From Anaerolineae bacterium (GTDB lineage Bacteria; Chloroflexota; Anaerolineae; Caldilineales; Caldilineaceae), in NCBI GenBank assembly GCA_030432295.1, contig JAUIHI010000001.1:310001-374000 (forward strand): 64,000 bases of DNA, written 5' to 3'. The notes below the pieces were generated by a model. It did no database searches. It saw nothing but the letters and a program-made list of their open reading frames with translations, and was not told where the DNA came from. The translations under genes and the position numbers were made by a program. Of this stretch, positions 4,221 through 53,500 are shown piece after piece (within the stretch, counting starts at the first letter, position 1; each line of letters starts with the position of its first letter).

Positions 4221-4401
4221 GTATTGGGTATTGGATATTTCGTAGTGGTGCTCTGGTGTTTAGAGAAGTTCGACTTTTTGGAAAAAGTCGAACTTCTTGC
4301 CTCGAAGCGTGAAACGCGAGAAAGCCTGATACTCTTGCGTTTTACGCTTCACTTCCGATAGGGCGACAATGTGACTACCCAATACCCAATATCCACTATC
4401 C
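4221..4401 (+). repeat. Heptad-repeat inverted repeat with two inner hairpins
   Basis: The gap between metG and the glycosyltransferase is built of palindromes. Outer arms at 4221-4240 and 4376-4401 share 13 bases (CCAATACCCAATA against its complement) and repeat with a 7-bp period (ACCCAAT). Inside lies a perfect 16-bp stem with a two-base loop, 4264-4279 pairing with 4282-4297, then an imperfect hairpin (arms 4304-4324 and 4332-4350) made of heptads such as AAGCGTG and AAACGCG. The right outer arm overlaps the GTG start and first codons of the next gene. Confidence 0.85.
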
Positions 4402-5942
4402 GCTCTCTTATCCTCCTCGTCTACCTCGCCCTCGCTGTCCTCTTCGCCAGCACAACCCCAGCCTGGCAGAACCCGGACGAACCAGCCCATTACAATTATG
4501 TGGCTTTCGTGGCGACAGAAGGCCGCTTACCTGTGCTGCAAATGGGCGATTACAACGAAGCCTATTTGCAGCGGCTGAAGGACGAAAAATTTCCGGCGGA
4601 ATTGTCGATTGCGCCCGTCCGCTACGAATTCCATCAGCCGCCGCTCTACTACATTCTGGCTGCGCCCGTCTACTGGCTGAGTGGGGGGAGTCTGCTGGCC
4701 CTGCGTCTCTTCAGCGCTCTGCTGGGCGCGGGGGGCATCTGGCTGCTCTCCCTTTGCTTCCAGACGGTTTTGCCTGATAGGCCCGGCGTTGTCCTGGCCG
4801 CCACCGCCTTTGTCGCCTTTCTGCCAATGCACCTGGCGATTCTCTCCAGTCTGAACAACGACAGTCTGGCCGAGTTGATGATTGCGGGTGGGCTGCTGGT
4901 GCTGTTGAGATGGACGGCAGATCGCAGACAGCCGACGGCGGACAGCACTCCGCATTCCGCATTCCGCATTCCGCATTTGCTTCAGCTTGGCCTTTTTATC
5001 GGTCTCGGCTTCCTCACCAAAGCCACCTCCTACATCCTTCTCCCGGTCGCTCTCATCACAGTCACACTCGTCATTGCTGTTCGCAATTCGCAATTCGCAA
5101 TTCGCAATTTTTTCTCACCCCTTTTTCTTGTCCTTCTGCCGTCCCTTCTCCTCGGCCTGCCCCTCTGGTTGCGCAACATCGCCACCTACGGCGGGCTGGA
5201 CTTTCTGGGCCTGGGCTGGCACGACCGGGTGGTGACCGGCCAGCCAACAACCGTCGATTGGATCGCCGTCAATGGCTGGTCCGCCTACTGGGAACGGGCC
5301 TGGGATTTCACTTTCAATAGTTTCTGGGGCGTCTTCGGCTGGCTGGGCGTCTTTATGGACGGGCGGGTATACACGCTGCTGCTCATTTTCAGTGGAATTG
5401 TGACTGCGGGTGTAGTAGCTGGTCTCCTTCGTGCTGCGACCAGCGACCGGAGACTAGCGCCGGTTGAGCAGCGCAGCGTGTCGAAACCCAGCGGGTCAGA
5501 CGGTTCGGCTTCCGAGCGCTGGGGGGTCTTTGTCGCGCTCCTCCTGTTGGCCGGTGTGGCTGCCTCCTACGTCTGGTACAACCTGGGCTTTGTCCAGCAC
5601 CAGGGCCGCTACCTCTTCCCCGCGCTCTTTTCCTTCGGGTTGCTCTTTGCGCTGGGCTGGAGGGAAGCACTGCGCCCACGGGTGAGTTTTGTAATCGCCG
5701 GATTGCTATTCCTATGGGCCGTTGTTTTGGCAGGAACCGGGTTGGCTGCGGGTGCGTTGGACAAGTGGACGCTGCTTTTTCTCGCCGGGGGGATGGGCGT
5801 GTTGCTGGTCAACGGGCTGTTGGAACGGATACCCAGCGGCACGCGGCTGCGACCCATCCTTTTCGCTGCGCCTTTTGTGTTGTTGATCCTACTGGACGCA
5901 GCCATTCCCTTCCTGTATACTATTCCTCAGTTGGGACGATGA
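4371..5942 (+). CDS. GT-C membrane glycosyltransferase (PMT/ArnT-like)
   Basis: A 523-residue polytopic protein with about ten or more membrane helices. The first periplasmic loop contains WQNPDEPAHYNY, the acidic DE motif expected of lipid-phosphate-sugar-dependent GT-C transferases, followed by YEFHQPPLYY. Such enzymes move a sugar from a polyprenyl-phosphate donor to an acceptor outside the membrane; donor and acceptor are unknown here. The start is GTG 4371, whose first codons come from the right arm of the upstream repeat. Three short-period repeat arrays lie inside the coding sequence in inter-helix loops: 4919-4974, 5080-5107 and 5434-5461. They encode low-complexity stretches such as STPHSAFRIPH and RNSQFAIRN, presumably tolerated there. 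No obvious operon partner. Confidence 0.85.
   Translation: MTTQYPISTIRSLILLVYLALAVLFASTTPAWQNPDEPAHYNYVAFVATEGRLPVLQMGDYNEAYLQRLKDEKFPAELSIAPVRYEFHQPPLYYILAAPVYWLSGGSLLALRLFSALLGAGGIWLLSLCFQTVLPDRPGVVLAATAFVAFLPMHLAILSSLNNDSLAELMIAGGLLVLLRWTADRRQPTADSTPHSAFRIPHLLQLGLFIGLGFLTKATSYILLPVALITVTLVIAVRNSQFAIRNFFSPLFLVLLPSLLLGLPLWLRNIATYGGLDFLGLGWHDRVVTGQPTTVDWIAVNGWSAYWERAWDFTFNSFWGVFGWLGVFMDGRVYTLLLIFSGIVTAGVVAGLLRAATSDRRLAPVEQRSVSKPSGSDGSASERWGVFVALLLLAGVAASYVWYNLGFVQHQGRYLFPALFSFGLLFALGWREALRPRVSFVIAGLLFLWAVVLAGTGLAAGALDKWTLLFLAGGMGVLLVNGLLERIPSGTRLRPILFAAPFVLLILLDAAIPFLYTIPQLGR
4919..4974 (+). repeat. Heptad array inside the glycosyltransferase gene
   Basis: Eight consecutive 7-bp units: ATTCCGC three times, preceded by related units ACTCCGC, GGACAGC, CGACGGC, AGACAGC and AGATCGC. 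The array is read through in frame. Confidence 0.9.
5080..5107 (+). repeat. Perfect 4x heptad TTCGCAA inside the glycosyltransferase gene
   Basis: TTCGCAA is repeated four times without change, followed by a T run. It encodes RNSQFAIRN between two hydrophobic segments. Confidence 0.95.
5434..5461 (+). repeat. Degenerate heptad array inside the glycosyltransferase gene
   Basis: Four 7-bp units (CTGCGAC, CAGCGAC, CGGAGAC, TAGCGCC) at the beginning of a hydrophilic linker that reads SDRRLAPVEQRSVSKPSG. Confidence 0.75.
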
Positions 5943-24691: not shown

Positions 24692-26521
24692 CTACGAATA
24701 CCGGGCGAAGATGTCCCGGTATGCCTGGGAACTCTCTAACAACTCTTCGTGGCTGCCCACTGCGGCCACCCGCCCTTTGCGCAGGACCACAATTTTGTCG
24801 GCCCAGCGAATCTGGGAGAGGCGATGGGTGATCAGAATCGTCGTGCGCCCACGAGTAGCGGCTTCGATGGCCCGCTGAATCTGGTCCTCGGTGGCGCTGT
24901 CGATGGCGCTGGTCGAATCGTCCAGAATCAGCACAGCCGGGTCTGTCAGAAAGGCCCGGGCCAGGGCGATGCGCTGGCGTTGCCCGCCGGAGAGCATCAC
25001 CCCCCGCTCACCCACAACCGTATCGTAGCCCTGGGGAAATGTGCTGATGAAGTCGTGGGCCTGGGCGGATTTGGCCGCTTCCACAATCTCCGCCTGGCTG
25101 GCATCGGGACGGCCAAAGGCAATATTCTCCCCAATCGTGCGGCTGAAGAGGAAGATGTCCTGCTCGATGATAGAAATCTGTCGGCGCAGGTCTGCGATAT
25201 TCCAGCCCCGGACATCCACCCCGTCCACCGTCACCCGACCGTCGGAGATGTCGTAGATGCGGTTGATCAGCTTGGCGACTGTGCTCTTGCCAGAGCCGGT
25301 CTGCCCCACCAGCGCCAGGGTTTGCCCCGCGTCGATAGTAAAGCTGACGCCTTCCAGCGCGGGTCGACTGGCCTGGCTGTCGCTGCTGCTTTGGCCGCTG
25401 CCGTTGACATACCCGCTCGTCTTGCCGCTGTCGTTCAGCGTCGATTCATAGCCAAAGGTCACGTTTTCAAAGCGAATCTCCCCCCGCATCTTTTCACTGT
25501 AGCCGCCTTCGTTGCGGTCCAGTTCTGTCTCTGACCGCAGAAGCTCCAGAATACGTCGGGCGCTGGAAACACCGGAGGAAACCTGGGAATAGGCAAAAAG
25601 AGAGACGAAGACCGGAAAGCTGAAGAGGGAGATAATGCCCGTGTAGGCCACCACATCGCCCAGGGGGATAGCCTCGGCCCGGAAGAGGACCAGCGCGTGC
25701 CACAGACCCGTGGCCTGGGCAATGCCCAACAGGAGCAGGGGCAGATATTTGGCTTCCACCCGGCCCTGGCCCACGAAGGCTTCCCGCACCTGGCGGGCAT
25801 TCTTCTCAAAGCGCTCGATCTCCACGTGCTCCTGGGCCGCGGCTTTGACGGTCTCGATGCCTTCGATGGCCGCGGTCAGCCCCGCATTCATTCGCCCGAA
25901 GCTGGTCCGCACCTGGGTGGTGGCCGGGGAGAGGTCCCGCAGGTATTGGGCCAGGGCGAAGGTGTAGAGGACGGCAAAGATCAGCGGTGTCCAGATCAGT
26001 TGGGGGTGGATGCTGGGGGCCACCAGAATGGGTACGATCAGAAAGTTGGCCGAGCCGACCACCAGATTGAGACCCGGCGCAACCAGCAGGGCCAACTCTC
26101 GCACGTCGTTGGTGGCCCGGGCCATCATTTCGCCGGTGGGATAGCCATCGTGAAAACGCATGGACTTGCCCAGCAGTGAGGCGTACAACTCCTGGCGGCT
26201 GTCCCGCTCCAGCCGTTGGCCCTGGACTTCGCTGGCCGCGTTGCGGGCTAATTGGAGCAGGCTGCGCACCAGTTGCGTCCCCACCATCAGCACAGAGACC
26301 CAGAGAATCGTCTGCAAGTTCACCACATCGCCCCGGGCCGCGTTGAAGGCCTGACCGGCGTAGATGGGGATGGCTGAAGCCAGGGCCGCATTGCCAAACG
26401 CGCCCAGAATCGAGATGATCACCAGCCAGATGTTGTGCTGGAGATGGGAGATCAGCCAGCGCACGGGGCCGCTCTGGTTGGTGCGGATGGGATTTGCAAC
26501 GACAAATTCACTTTTCAGCAC
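24692..26521 (-). CDS. ABC exporter half-transporter (permease-ATPase), degenerate-site type
   Basis: A 609-residue MsbA-like chain: six-helix membrane domain (about 20-330) plus nucleotide-binding domain. Walker A is GQTGSGKS, the signature LSGGQRQR, the H-loop TILITHRL. Walker B reads [13 protein letters not shown]: the residue after the Walker B Asp is Asp, not the catalytic Glu. That is typical of the degenerate half of heterodimeric exporters. No partner half-transporter gene is nearby; the region where one would be expected is the tandem repeat array. A Ser/Gly-rich insert ([18 protein letters not shown]) interrupts the start of the ATPase domain. Substrate unknown. Confidence 0.92.
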
Positions 26522-26639: not shown

Positions 26640-27885
26640 GCAATGAGGCGCGAGTGAAAATCGACTGGCCGCCCCTCACCGCCCCCTACCTATTGACGGG
26701 AAGGTCGGTTGTTGGAGGGACGCCCCCACCTCTCCCAGCTATGCCATTGGTTTGTCGGTGTTGTCGTCCGCGCTGGGAGAGGTGGGGGAAGGACAACGAT
26801 TGGTGCGTTTTGTCATCGGCCCCACCACACCGAAACCCACCCAAACGCCATTGACAGACTCCCCTCTCCCGGCCCAGCCAATAGCAGAAGCCCTCACCGC
26901 CCCCTACTTATTGAAGGGAAGGTCGGCTGTTGAAGGGACGCCCCCACCTCTCCCAGCTATGCCATTGGTTTGTCGGTGTTGTCGTCCGCGCTGGGAGAGG
27001 TGGGGGAAGGACAACGATTGGTGCGTTTTGTCATCGACCCCACCACACCGAAACCCACCCAAACGCCATTGACAGACTCCCCTCTCCCGGCCCAGCCAAT
27101 AGCAGAAGCCCTCACCGCCCCCTACTTATTGAAGGGAAGGTCGGCTGTTGAAGGGACGCCCCCGCCTCTCCCAGCTATGCCATTGGTTCGTCGGTGTTGT
27201 CGTCCGCGCTGGGAGAGGCGGGGGAAGGACGAAGATTGGTAGGCTTCGTCATCGACGCCACCACACCTCTCCCAGCGCGAATCACCATCGACAGACTCCC
27301 CTCTCCCGGCCCAGCCAATAGCAGAAGCCCTCACCGCCCCCTACTTATTGAAGGGAAGGTCGACTGTTGGAGGGACGCCCCCGCCTCTCCCAGCTATGCC
27401 ATTGGTTTGTCGGTGTTGCCATCTGCGCTGGGAGAGGTGGGGGAAGGACGAAGATTGGTGCGTTTTGTCATCGAAACCGCATCTTTCATCAGCCCGTCAA
27501 ACGCCATCGACAGACTCCCCTCTCCCTGCCCAACCAACGCAACCTACCAAACATCGCCACGGCTGGGAGAGGGGCCGGGGGTGAGGGCCACGATTGGTGG
27601 GCTTCGTCATCGACCCTATCACGCCGAAACTCATCCAGACGCCATCGACAGACTCCCCTCTCCCCAGCCAAACCAGCAGCCCCCACAAACCATCGCCACG
27701 GCTGGGAGAGGGGCCGGGGGTGAGGGCGACAATTCAATCGTTTCGTCATCGACCCGGTATCTTCCAGCCGCCGCGAATCACCATCGACAGACTCCCCTCT
27801 CCCGGTCCAGCCAGCAGCCCCCACAAACCATCGCCACGGCAGGGAGAGGGGCCGGGGGTGAGGGCGTTGGGGTGAGAGCCACACA
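26640..27885 (+). repeat. Tandem array of about 218-bp units with conserved hairpins
   Basis: Four units start with the left hairpin arms at 26723, 26941, 27159 and 27378 (periods 218, 218, 219). In each a 17-bp arm (CCCCCACCTCTCCCAGC or the G variant) pairs with a downstream arm (26772-26788, 26990-27006, 27208-27224, 27427-27443). Three shorter, more diverged units follow up to the stop of the DUF2723 gene; they carry GACTCCCCTCTCC and GGCTGGGAGAGGGG. The 1368-base gap 26522-27889 contains no credible gene; long open frames across it are low-complexity translations of the repeat. Confidence 0.93.
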
Positions 27886-27889
27886 GATC

Positions 27890-29845
27890 CTACCGCAGCG
27901 CAACCTCCAGCGCCGGAGCCAACTGAATCAACTCCGGCTGGGAATTTTCATCGGAGCCGGGAGCGCGGGTATAGAGAAGCACCTGCATTTTGGCCGCAGC
28001 GCCGGGCACACCCACCGGGAACAGATGGGTGTCCCGCGTGATCTCACCCACTTTCCACAGGGAAGTCGGGTAGAAGTCGCCGCCGGGCGGACGATCGTCC
28101 TGGCCCAGCCGCTGCCCCGCGCCGTCAAAAAGCTGCACGGATGTGGTGTAATCGCCCCGCAGCCTCTCCTCCACCTGCCAGAAGAGGGAGACCTGCGCAG
28201 TATCCCCGCTTTGGCTGACAGAATATCCCAGCAGCGTCAACGGTCTATAGGCCAGATCGAGCCGCTGATCGGCCAGCCCCTCATCGACAGTTCCCATCAC
28301 CCGGACCAGTGGTGGCGTGGACGCTGCCAAATCGAACTTTGCTTCCAGCCCCGCCATTGCTTTGATGAGAAAGACCGGGCGCTCTCCCCCGTCCAGGGCT
28401 GTCGCCGTCACAGCGCCCACATCGGCGAAACGCTCTTCCGGCGTGAGCAGGGGAAAGAGACCGGTCAGCCCGGTGGCCCTGTCCTCCACCGCCTGCAAAT
28501 AGTAGAGGGGCACAATTTCGTTGCGGTCATTGCTGACCAGAATGGCGTCGGCGGGTGGCTGGGCGGCCAGAATCCCGTCCCACATCTGTCGGGCGGAATT
28601 GTCATTCGACCGGTCGAGAGACGGGAAATGGGTCAGAAAAAGCGATGCAGGCAGGAGCAGCAGGATGGCGAACCAGAGTGCCAGTTGCGAGTTGCGGATT
28701 GCGGGTTGCGTCTGCCGTCCGCCGTCCGCGGTCTGCCGTCTTTGGGTCATCCCAATCAGCCATTCCACCCCACAGCCGGCCCACAGTGCGGCGAAGAGGT
28801 AGAGGGGAATATAAAAGACATAAATATCGCCGATGCCGTAGAAAAGATTGAAGATTTGCAGCAGCAGGAAAGCAGGCAGTGTCAGAAGCAGGAGTGGCCA
28901 GTGTCTTTGCCTGAAAAGAACGACCAGCCCCAATAGGGCCAGGGCCAGCCCCGGCCAGGTAAAGTGAACCAGCCAGAGACTCCCCATTTCGGGCAAGCGG
29001 GCCAATGCCTGGGCCGGGCTAAGAAAACTCACCGCAAAGACCGAACCGGTGATAAAGTCCACAAAGCCCTGGAATGTGGGCGTGTAGAGCGCCAGCGTCT
29101 CTGCGCCCAGCCGGGGATAGAGCCAGGGCGAAGCATTCACACCGCTGCGCAGGGGAATGTAGAGATAGAGCAATTGGGGCAAAGCCAGCCCGCCGATCAG
29201 AGCGGCCCACAATCGCCCCTTCTGCCACCAACTGCGTTCCTGCCAAAAGAGCCAGAGCAGGAAGCCCGGCAGGAGAAAGAGAGCGGTGCGGTGGTGGGTG
29301 AGGGCGAGGCCGAGGAGGAGGGACAGGGTGAAAAAGCGATTGGATGATAGGGCGATAGGGAGATTGGGAGATTGGCTGTGACGGGCGGTTAGGAAGAGAA
29401 AGCCCGCTATGAAAAGCGCGTGGAGGGTGTAGACCTCGGCGATGAGGGCCTGGCTCCACAGGGTAGGGTTGATGCCGATGAGCAGGGCGGCGAAAAAGGC
29501 CGACACACGGACGGCAATGGGGGGAGAGGGCGTGCGCCTGGGCAGCCAGCCCAGCACGGCCAGATAGAAGAGCGCGACAGCAGCCGCGGCCAGAAATGCG
29601 CTGAACGCATTGAGGCTGGCCGCCGGGTCTGCGCCGAAAAGCCCGGCCAGGTGTTGCCAGCTTCCCCCCAGCAGCAGATAGAGCGGGTAGCCCGTGGGAT
29701 GCGCCAATCCAAAACGCCAGGCCGCAAACTGGAATTCACCCGGATCGCCAAAGAGCAGACCCGGCGCCAGGGTGCGGCTGTAGAGGCCCAGAAAGAGGGC
29801 GAAGATCACAATCGCCAGCCGCCGATCCAGCCGGGAGATTGTCAC
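27890..29845 (-). CDS. DUF2723 membrane protein, GT-C-like
   Basis: A 651-residue protein with about ten membrane helices in its first 430 residues and a soluble C-terminal domain. The start GLYSRTLAPGLLFGDPGEFQ with AHPTGYPLY is the DUF2723 signature; the acidic D-x2-E motif sits in the first external loop, as in lipid-linked sugar-dependent GT-C transferases. Two short-period arrays lie inside: heptads at 28683-28738 (encoding QTADGGRQTQPAIRNSQ) and octads at 29336-29375. The ATG overlaps the stop of the sulfotransferase gene by four bases, suggesting joint action on one glycan or lipid. Last gene of the operon. Confidence 0.88.
   Translation of the reverse strand: MTISRLDRRLAIVIFALFLGLYSRTLAPGLLFGDPGEFQFAAWRFGLAHPTGYPLYLLLGGSWQHLAGLFGADPAASLNAFSAFLAAAAVALFYLAVLGWLPRRTPSPPIAVRVSAFFAALLIGINPTLWSQALIAEVYTLHALFIAGFLFLTARHSQSPNLPIALSSNRFFTLSLLLGLALTHHRTALFLLPGFLLWLFWQERSWWQKGRLWAALIGGLALPQLLYLYIPLRSGVNASPWLYPRLGAETLALYTPTFQGFVDFITGSVFAVSFLSPAQALARLPEMGSLWLVHFTWPGLALALLGLVVLFRQRHWPLLLLTLPAFLLLQIFNLFYGIGDIYVFYIPLYLFAALWAGCGVEWLIGMTQRRQTADGGRQTQPAIRNSQLALWFAILLLLPASLFLTHFPSLDRSNDNSARQMWDGILAAQPPADAILVSNDRNEIVPLYYLQAVEDRATGLTGLFPLLTPEERFADVGAVTATALDGGERPVFLIKAMAGLEAKFDLAASTPPLVRVMGTVDEGLADQRLDLAYRPLTLLGYSVSQSGDTAQVSLFWQVEERLRGDYTTSVQLFDGAGQRLGQDDRPPGGDFYPTSLWKVGEITRDTHLFPVGVPGAAAKMQVLLYTRAPGSDENSQPELIQLAPALEVALR
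28683..28738 (-). repeat. Heptad array inside the DUF2723 gene
   Basis: Eight 7-bp units on the plus strand: AGTTGCG twice, GATTGCG, GGTTGCG, TCTGCCG, TCCGCCG, TCCGCGG, TCTGCCG. Confidence 0.85.
29336..29375 (-). repeat. Octad array inside the DUF2723 gene
   Basis: Five 8-bp units of the form NN-GATWGG: GCGATTGG, ATGATAGG, GCGATAGG, GAGATTGG twice. It encodes SQSPNLPIALSSN in a loop. Confidence 0.85.
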
Positions 29846-50085: not shown

Positions 50086-50189
50086 TCATTTGTTACTTTC
50101 TCGCTACGAAAATCATAGCGTAGTCTAGCCCGGAAAGCAAAAACCGACTGTAGGAGTGAGGACATTACGTCCCGCTGCCTGGGTTGTGC

Positions 50190-50457
50190 CCTCACCACCC
50201 CCTACGCATTGGAGGGAAGCCGGTTGATTGAGTGTTGCCCCCTCCTCTCCCAGCGGTGGAATTGGTGTGTGGGGACTGTTGGCTGCGCTGGGAGAGGTGG
50301 GGGGAAGACGACAATTGAAGGGCATCGTCGTCGGATGTTACATCGACATTACAACATCCCGATTTGCCGTCCACGCCATCGACAGACTCCCCTCTCCTGG
50401 CCCAGATAACACCCCCCGCCCCGTCAACGCCGCGGCTGGGAGAGGGGGCGGGGGTGA
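50190..50457 (+). repeat. Dispersed copy of the 26.6-27.9 kb repeat
   Basis: The hairpin arms CCCCCTCCTCTCCCAGC (50238-50254) and GCTGGGAGAGGTGGGGG (50287-50303), the GACAGACTCCCCTCTCC segment and the closing GGCTGGGAGAGGGGGCGG all recur from the tandem array. Confidence 0.88.
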
Positions 50458-50467
50458 GGCCATTTGT

Positions 50468-50521: not shown

Positions 50522-53500
50522 ATGACCCTAACCATCCCTTCCCGCTCTGCCCTTTCTGCGGCAGAGATGCGTGGCCCTGTGGCCGAGACCGCCGACCTCC
50601 TGGCCGAACTCAAACGTGACATTCAGGGCGAAGTGCGCTTCGACGCCTATAGCCGGATGCTCTATAGCACCGACGCCAGCCTCTATCAGATTCAGCCCGT
50701 CGGCGTTGTGCTGCCCAAGCACGCCGAAGATATGCAGGCCGCGATGCAGATTGCAGCCCGCCATCACATTCCTGTGTTGCCCCGGGGCGGCGGCAGTTCC
50801 CTGGCCGGTCAGGCGGTGGGCGCGGCCCTGGTCATCGACACCTCCAAATATATGGACCGGGTGCTGGGCATCGACGAGGAGGCCAAAACTGTGCGGGTCC
50901 AGCCGGGGATGACCGTCGGCCTGCTCAACAAAGCTCTGGGCGGTCTGGGGCTGATGCTCGGCCCGGACCCCGCCAGCGCGGAGAGGGCCACCGTCGGCGG
51001 CTCCATCGGCAACAACGCCACAGGCAGCCACAGCATTCTCTACGGGATGATGGCGGACAATGTGCAGGAGACAGCGGTGGTTCTGGCCGACGGCAGCACA
51101 GCCCGTTTTGGCCCGGTTGCGCCCGGCGATCTGGCCGCACTGGGCCGGGGCGATAGCCTGGAAGCCCGCATCTACCGGGAATTGCCGGGGCTGATCAGCG
51201 GCGTCACCGAGCAGATTGTGGCCCGCTGGCCCAAACACTGGCGGCGGGCCTCCGGCTACAATCTGGACCGGTTGGCCGCGGCCCTTCTCCCCGCGGATCA
51301 GCGCGCCCGGCTCAACCCCAGCAGCCCCTTCCGCCCGGATATTGTGGACCCGGCCCGCATCGACCGCTTCAACATCTCCCAGCTTCTCACCGGCAGCGAA
51401 GGCACTCTGGCCGCCATCACCGAAGCCACCCTGCGCCTGGTTGTCAAACCCAAATTCACCGGCCTGGCTGTCGTCCACTTCGACCGGGTGATCGACGCCT
51501 GCGCCTCGATTCCTGCCATTCTGGAGACCGATCCCAGCGCATCCGAACTGTTGGACAAACAGTTGATGGACCTGGCCCGCGCCCAGCCCGAATGGGCCAA
51601 AAAGATGTTCTTTGTGGAGGGCGACCCGGAAGGGGTGCTGCTCACCGAATATTACGGCGACAGCGCCGAAGAGGTGGAGAAGAAGCTGGCCCATCTGGAG
51701 GATCACCTGCGCCGCCGGGGGGTGAAGGGTGTCATCCGCCGCTACGTCCAGCCCCAGGCCCAGGCCGATGTCTGGTCTGTGCGCAAGGCCGGTCTGAACA
51801 TTTTGATGGGCAAGCGGGGCGAGTATAAGCCGATCTCTGGCATTGAGGATGTCTCTGTGCCGCCGGAGATGCTGGCCGCCTATCTGGAGCGTATCCTCGC
51901 CTTTGCCGGAACCCAGACCGCCAGCAAAGGAGTAGCCGTCTATGCACACGCCTCCGCGGGCTGTCTGCATGTGCGCCCGCTGCTGAATGTCAAGAGTGAG
52001 GACGGCATCGCCGCGCTGGAGGCGTTGGGCGAATTTGCCTGCGATCTGGCTGTGGAGTACGGCGGCACAATGAGCGGTGAGCACGGCGACGGTCTGGTGC
52101 GCAGCGCGCTCAATCCCCGGCTCTTTGGCCCGGAACTTTATGAGGCCCTGCGCGGTACCAAAGCCATCTTCGACCCGGAGAACCGAATGAATCCGGGCAA
52201 AATTGTCGATGCCCCACCCATCCGGGAGAACCTGCGCTACGGCACGGACTACGGCACAATCGAACTGAAGACTGTCTACGATTGGGGCAGCGACGGCGGC
52301 TTTGCCCCTGCGGTGGAGATGTGCAACGGCGCGGGCGTCTGCCGCAAAGTGGGGATTGGCACAATGTGTCCCAGCTTCCACGCCACAAAGGACGAACGGG
52401 ACACGACCCGGGGCCGGGCCAACGGTCTGCGCAACGCGCTGGCTGGGCGCATCCCCCAGGAGGAACTCTTCAGTCCGGAGATGTACGGGGTGATGGACCT
52501 TTGCCTGGGCTGCAAAGCCTGCAAAAGTGAGTGTCCGTCGGCGGTGGATATGGCCCGCATCAAATCCGAATATCTGGTCCACTACTACGCCGAAAATGGC
52601 CTGCCCCTCTTCAACCGGATGATGGGGCTGCTGCCGACGCTCAACCGCCTGCTCTATCGGGTGGCCCGCCCGCTGGTTCCGCTGGTCAACGCCAGCCTGG
52701 CCTCGGCCCCGGCCAAAGCTCTATTCGAGAAAATCGGCGTTCACCCGGCCCGCACATTGCCCAAATACGCGCCCGACACATTCTCGAATTGGTTCCACGC
52801 CAGGGGCGAGGCGCGAGGGGCGACATCCCCAATTCCGCATTCCGCATTCCCCACTCCGCATTCGGTGATTCTCTTCCACGACACCTGGGCCGAATACAAC
52901 CACCCGGAAGTGGCCGAGGCCGCGGTGCGGGTGTTGGAAGCCGGGGGGTATACCGTCTATCTGGCCGAGGGTCGGGCCTGCTGTGGGCGTCCGCTCATCA
53001 CCGGCGGCCAGGCGGACAAAGCCAAGCCCTGGGTGGACCAGAACGTGGCTCTGCTTGCGCCCTACGCGGCCCAGGGCATCCCGATTGTAGGTATCGAGCC
53101 GAGCTGCATTTTGACACTGCGGGACGAATACCCGGCCCTGGCCGCAGACAAAAACCGGGCGCAGATTCTGGCCCAGCACGCACTGACCTTCGAGGAGTTT
53201 GTCGTGCGTGAGGCGGAGGGCGGCGGCTTTGGCGACATCTGGCGGGAGACGCCGGGGAGGGTGCATCTCCACGGCCACTGCCACGCCAAAGCGCTGGTGG
53301 GCAACGAAGCGTCGGTGGCCGCGCTCAAGCGTGCGGGCTACGGCGTGCAGGTCATCCCCAGCGGCTGCTGCGGTATGGCTGGCGACTTTGGCTATGAGAA
53401 GGATCACTACGAAGTCAGCCGCACGATCGGGGAAGAGCGACTCTTCCCGGCTGTGCGGGCCGCGGGCAAAGACGATCTGATCGTCGCCAGTGGCACCTCC

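Follow-up and report, generated by a model that had tools for sequence, protein, structure and literature searches.

The window analysed here, a 64,000-nt stretch of contig JAUIHI010000001.1 from an Anaerolineae bacterium of the family Caldilineaceae, carries a repeat array at 26640-27885. The array lies between two minus-strand genes, one encoding an ABC transporter with a transmembrane domain (24692-26521; PF00005 and PF00664) and the other a TMEM260-like membrane protein (27890-29845; PF11028), whose stop codon precedes the array. Two kinds of unit are present: four 218-bp units, each containing a hairpin (A) and half of another (B), followed by three complete B units of about 139 bp, which are oriented opposite to the A hairpins. 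We use A and B as labels distinct from types A and B of Holder et al., although our B also has CCG. Tandem Repeats Finder detected a period of 218 with 4.0 copies at 26673-27537 (score 1372) and a second array with a period of 139 at 27498-27865.

The 218-bp units are located on the plus strand at 26673-26889, 26890-27107, 27108-27326, and 27327-27545. Unit 1 consists, in order, of a third-strand-like segment CCCTCACCGCCCCC, a spacer, the A hairpin, a further spacer, and the left half of a B hairpin. Unit 2 is 97% identical to unit 1, and unit 3, which includes a patch resembling the last B unit, is 90% identical to unit 2. Unit 4 shares 83-85% identity with the other units and continues into the first complete B hairpin. 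These graded identities suggest that the array grew stepwise and make an assembly duplication of one unit unlikely. The 218-bp units share an identical junction, where GCCCTCACC follows directly on an interrupted B loop, indicating that one putative rearrangement, followed by tandem amplification, produced them. The complete B elements are on the minus strand at 27517-27588 (strand given by loop orientation), 27655-27727, and 27794-27865, and the last of these ends 24 bp short of the TMEM260-like gene's stop codon. In the first, the plus strand reads CCCCTCTCCC, a 38-nt loop, GGGAGAGGGG, CCG, and GGGGTGAGGG, a layout that, judged by the motif definition of PMC4666352, is that of TM_ECO with a long first loop. 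A coding array was rejected, as the ORFs across it gave no Pfam match. The constant unit spacing also raised the possibility of an integron attC-like or CRISPR-like array, but the spacers proved conserved and inspection showed no attC core, so this reading was abandoned. Elsewhere in the window, 7-bp tandem repeats (GCATTCC, TTCGCAA, and ATTCCGC) are present at 4945-4977, 5080-5109, and 52832-52863; the first two fall within the span of ORF 4371-5942, where a change in unit number would shift the frame.

The four A hairpins are located on the plus strand at 26723-26788, 26941-27006, 27159-27224, and 27378-27443. The stem in unit 1 is 17 bp long, with 26723-26739 pairing with 26772-26788, and the hairpins are much more stably folded than dinucleotide shuffles (z -3.7 to -4.7 on the plus strand and -4.8 on the minus strand). 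The original prediction described a tandem repeat whose hairpin stem covaries, and its reading of the array is exact: the units are spaced by 218, 218, and 219 bases; one stem pair is A-T in unit 1 (26728/26783) and unit 2 (26946/27001), G-C in unit 3 (27164/27219), and G-T in unit 4 (27383/27438); and the remaining 16 stem pairs are invariant across the four units. The G-T pair was taken as a wobble in RNA, which holds for the plus strand, but it reads as an A.C mismatch on the minus strand, where both flanking genes lie. Taken alone, one variable position among four tandem units carries little evidential weight, and the statistics come from the genome-wide family.

The 218-bp unit has 51 matches in its own genome, which form approximately 18 clusters between genes predicted from ORFs. 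When the gap was left free at 28-56 nt, the arm pair CTCTCCC/GGGAGAG was found at 56 sites in this genome, compared with one for the reversed control, and the gap was 37-40 nt at 55 of the 56. Likewise, the loop measures 37-39 nt in 104 of the 118 exact-arm hairpins of the collected loci. The loci are intergenic and dispersed, with A and B copies in both orientations within arrays; tandem arrays of the family have units of 134-219 bp, and the flanks of copies read GCCCTCACC.. or GACAGACT/GACGAGTT. The window itself holds a second, non-tandem pair of copies at 50188-50463, comprising a hairpin at 50238-50303 on the plus strand and a divergent one at 50384-50451 on the minus strand. Among congeners, the CTCTCCC/GGGAGAG pattern was counted 32, 14, 13, 5, 0, and 0 times. 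G018, which belongs to the same taxonomic family, contributes three or four pairs with a 36-37 nt gap, and genera outside have few pairs, mostly with unrelated gaps. The matches listed for 300 other genomes of the phylum are chance pairs or neighbouring short hairpins, none of them with the long loop. The genomes are draft assemblies, and several clusters are at contig ends.

Comparison with congeners gives an indication of the history of the site. The orthologue of the TMEM260-like gene in G006 has 82% identity; two B hairpins come after it, and beyond them lie the same promoter-proximal sequence and ABC transporter as here. The stop codon and the anchor AGTCGATTTT, which both genomes share, are 1229 bp apart here versus 266 bp in G006. 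B copies also occupy the site in G001, up to the contig end, while the element is absent next to the orthologous gene in G005 and G003. In G004 (G004:C89, L231), an unrelated C/G palindrome CCTCCCCCGCTGCGGGGGAGG lies at the same post-stop position, as if this were a hotspot for palindromic repeats. B hairpins are probably the older state at the site, and this is the only one of the genomes seen that has the 218-bp units. The best reading is that the array has expanded after divergence from the relative that carries two hairpins there.

At its end, the B hairpin carries the 24-mer GGGAGAGGGGCCGGGGGTGAGGGC; exact copies are present in at least 118 stretches from elsewhere, with hosts including Pseudomonas, Cupriavidus, Thiotrichaceae, Planctomycetota, Acidobacteria, Chloroflexota, Spirochaetia, and one cyanobacterium. 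At these sites the loop is mostly 3-7 nt, and the single 38-nt case among the at least 118 stretches is that of CHL15 (Caldilineaceae bacterium), whose contig JAHDWH010000192.1 is identical to the G001 stretch compared, which places the genus in Caldilineaceae (Chloroflexota). In L079 and L132 (Thiotrichaceae) and in L109 and L111 (Thiomargarita), the 24-mer forms complete inverted doublets whose copies are separated by only a few to tens of bases, showing that the full palindrome form exists outside Chloroflexota. The 24-mer fits the G-strand pattern of TM_ECO, GGGNGAGGG N3 GGGNGAGGG, with CCG as the second loop. The TM_ECO/PIT motif was defined by Holder et al. (2015 NAR, PMC4666352) as 5'-CCCTCNCCC N3-6 GGGNGAGGG N3 GGGNGAGGG, with a second loop of TTA in type A and CCG in type B; in E. 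coli K-12 it is always intergenic, sometimes as inverted A+B doublets.

The family shares with TM_ECO/PIT the arms CCCTCTCCC/GGGAGAGGG, the third segment GGGTGAGGG, the CCG second loop, the intergenic location, inverted doublets of two subtypes, site instability, and a copy number that differs strongly among relatives (56, 32, and 0 here). The 9-nt C-rich stem, CCCTCNCCC paired with GGGNGAGGG, is present in B copies, whereas A copies carry CCTCTCCC with a different outer stem. A 3-nt second loop followed by the third segment GGGNGAGGG was found only in B copies (32; taking the stem as 10 nt makes the loop CCG), and in A copies the third segment is approximately 47 nt away. Unlike TM_ECO/PIT, however, the family has a first loop of 37-40 nt instead of 3-6 nt, with a conserved G/T-rich sequence of its own, and only four short-loop copies are present in this genome. 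Its A/C subtypes also lengthen the stem to 17 bp, it forms the tandem arrays described above, and it belongs to Chloroflexota, while the published TM_ECO counts are for proteobacteria. Thirty-two genus copies fit the TM_ECO pattern except at loop 1, with the second loop read as 3-5 nt. The published definition excludes these 32 copies from TM_ECO, but their sequence and layout make them long-loop relatives of it. The family is best read as a lineage-specific, long-loop (37-40 nt) variant of the known PIT/TM_ECO repeat class.

Covariation of the arms was analysed in 134 non-overlapping copies (133 distinct) from five congeners, collected with a sequence profile that did not use structure but was seeded with intact arms and thus favours intact stems. 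The tree was based solely on columns of the loop and flanks, and 2000 simulations distributed the substitutions on it anew at random; this null model is a home-made equivalent of R-scape, and its tree uses approximately 56 columns of a recombining family. Column pair (21,76), which corresponds to the 26728/26783 pair, is C-G in 64 copies, T-A in 35, G-C in 16, A-T in one, and non-Watson-Crick in 17. It is therefore Watson-Crick in 116 of the 133 copies, compared with 49.4 expected from column composition. Eleven compensatory changes were inferred for the pair, compared with 0.51 on average and at most 4 under the null, and its association statistic also exceeded all simulations. The covariation beyond phylogenetic expectation on which the original prediction staked itself is thus borne out. 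Within the A/C-type copies alone (n=64), the same pair shows eight compensatory changes against 1.05 (maximum 6). Covariation is also supported for pair (33,64) and more weakly for pair (32,65), with three changes versus 0.19 (p 0.003) and an association statistic that is not significant in the whole set. The slid pair (21,78) exceeds the null on the G statistic through the A/B subfamily split, with zero compensatory changes; we therefore rely on the compensatory count. An independent counter applied to 36 A hairpins gave 95.5% paired cells versus 92.4% after shuffling and a covariation score of 0.087 versus 0.042, with slid versions reaching at most 0.014. Uncompensated stem changes, which the original prediction had named as evidence against itself, do occur: at least one mismatch within the 12-bp core was found in 72 of the 133 copies. 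Arm pairing is maintained yet not strict, and the variable positions reflect more than sequence conservation. Covariation above the phylogenetic null is common to RNA selection and template switching and is hence not decisive between them.

A second kind of change was found in the loops. In two copies, L027:870 and L033:2267, the 38-nt loop is inverted between conserved flanks, while 87 of the 104 copies are clearly concordant. L033:2267 and L033:2623 (G000:C32) are neighbouring hairpins with matching right flanks and loops in opposite orientations. Template switching between the arms of an inverted repeat homogenises the arms and inverts the spacer (PMC8604942), and even in RNA genes its traces include compensatory changes and inverted loops (PMC8794818). 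The hairpins described here resemble such quasipalindromes in their compensatory double stem changes and in whole-loop inversions with the arms kept. Template-switch hairpins, however, represent a mutational mechanism and not a repeat family, and the published cases, in rRNA and yeast genes, have much shorter loops than the 38-nt inversions seen here.

We consider it fairly probable that the array is a cluster produced by local amplification of a dispersed, intergenic, long-loop relative of PIT/TM_ECO, whose arms are kept paired by template switching at the DNA level. The repeat would act as single-stranded DNA in which its arms pair. During replication, the nascent strand may switch template between the arms, so that changes in one arm are copied across to the other and appear as covariation; the same switch would sometimes flip the loop. 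Unequal recombination between copies, or slippage, could then add tandem units. One mechanism would thus predict both arm covariation and loop inversion, and no host function is needed to explain the pattern. The original prediction had offered, besides a structured transcript, arms kept complementary by a recombination mechanism, and a DNA process of this kind is favoured by the two precise loop inversions together with the published mechanism. Several points count against this explanation or could be read otherwise. The 38-nt first loop is outside the TM_ECO definition, and the third strand of A units is approximately 47 nt away. Selection for a DNA or RNA hairpin would give compensatory changes too, and the two loop inversions could alternatively have arisen by recombination between oppositely oriented copies. 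The loop is also conserved in length and sequence beyond what passive arm correction requires, and its constant length is not accounted for by template switching.

The main alternative, which we regard as possible but unlikely, is that the family is a REP/BIME-like miniature element moved in trans by a hairpin-recognising HUH transposase (Y1, RAYT-type), with pairing selected because the enzyme reads a single-stranded DNA hairpin. As in the REP/BIME and RAYT systems (GTAG and CGTC superfamilies, PMC3733652), these are extragenic palindromes dispersed in clusters of alternating orientation, with head-to-head A/B doublets and mosaic tandem units as in BIMEs. A sequence-invariant stem in which one position keeps only its pairing would suit a hairpin-reading protein. 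The genome encodes about six PF01797 proteins, and the gene for one of them lies within tandem units of approximately 150 bp with GTAG ends. However, no linked RAYT gene carrying the repeat was found: in a profile search, the element was absent from 30 of 30 PF01797 loci of the genus, this genome included, and the loci inspected are mostly flanked by other palindromes of their own. In contrast to REP/BIME (PMC3733652), the family also has a longer loop and no GTAG or CGTC tag at the hairpin foot. The related TM_ECO was reported to have no association with transposons, phages, or plasmids (PMC4666352), and a phage or plasmid origin was likewise rejected here for want of a match. The tandem units around the PF01797 gene at C24:364110 (L042) carry long-loop palindromes CCTTCCGGGA..CCCGGAAGG and were seen at L249 2138-3051 (G000:C24, about 363137-364050) and in the flanks of the gene; the locus resembles a REPtron, and its architecture recalls that of the present array. 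Three other PF01797 genes, L044, L046, and L047 (G000:C39:90912, C38:6828, and C16:142602), each have their own flanking palindromes, GTGCGGTTTGTAACCGCAC, GTAGGTTGGGTTCTCGC, and CGCAAGCTAACAGCTTGCG, respectively.

A structured RNA or mRNA-end element, in which post-stop hairpins would serve to stabilise, process, or end transcripts, with RNA selection behind the stem covariation, is distinctly unlikely. It would account for the arm covariation above the null, for the strong folding on both strands, and for the position of hairpins directly after the stop codon here, in G006, and in G001. However, stem mismatches in element orientation comprise 33 G.T and 54 A.C (two-sided binomial p 0.03), that is, no excess of G.U; the opposite strand would show a mild G.T excess. 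The common exchange in A copies is from T-A to G-C, and its one-step intermediates, T.C and G.A (three of each seen), are not wobbles, so the exchange proceeds without a wobble route. As A and B copies occur in both orientations within one array, no transcript would read only one orientation. An Rfam gathering scan of the window gave no match, a tRNA/tmRNA search found none, and no intrinsic terminator was seen at the hairpins; one weak terminator site outside the array (26617-26598) is at chance level. Earlier studies cited by PMC4666352 had detected neither promoter nor terminator activity for the related PIT/TM_ECO motif. Taken together, these results do not support the structured transcript of the original prediction, nor a strand-specific RNA.

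We judge it quite improbable that the 38-nt loop is a functional payload, in which case the family would be a novel class of Caldilineaceae DNA hairpin element whose folded single strand is read by a putative enzyme that moves it and can flip the loop between fixed arms. It is very improbable that an intrastrand DNA triplex is the functional form, with the GGTGAGGG segment folding back on the hairpin and driving local genome instability. In its favour, the three-strand layout with its CCG second loop is kept in B copies, the array length changed between congeners, and the short-loop form makes a triplex in vitro as a single strand and is tied to genome instability, marking unstable loci in E. 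coli (PMC4666352). Against it, that form was not detected as a triplex in vivo (PMC4666352), and a first loop as long as 38 nt should make folding weaker. Agreement of the third-strand base with the pair comes down to a contrast between two subfamilies (G.GC 40, T.AT 8), and in A units base and pair are unlinked.

Few short repeats are shared as widely among bacteria as those of the PIT/TM_ECO class. The nearly invariant stem of the present family, with its few freely varying pairs, separates conservation of sequence from conservation of pairing, and the inverted loops suggest that the cause is mutational. Covariation in a repeated hairpin, even when it passes a phylogenetic test, need not mean a structured RNA. 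The family is a clear variant of a known repeat class and provides unusually clean evidence on how the arms of such repeats stay alike.
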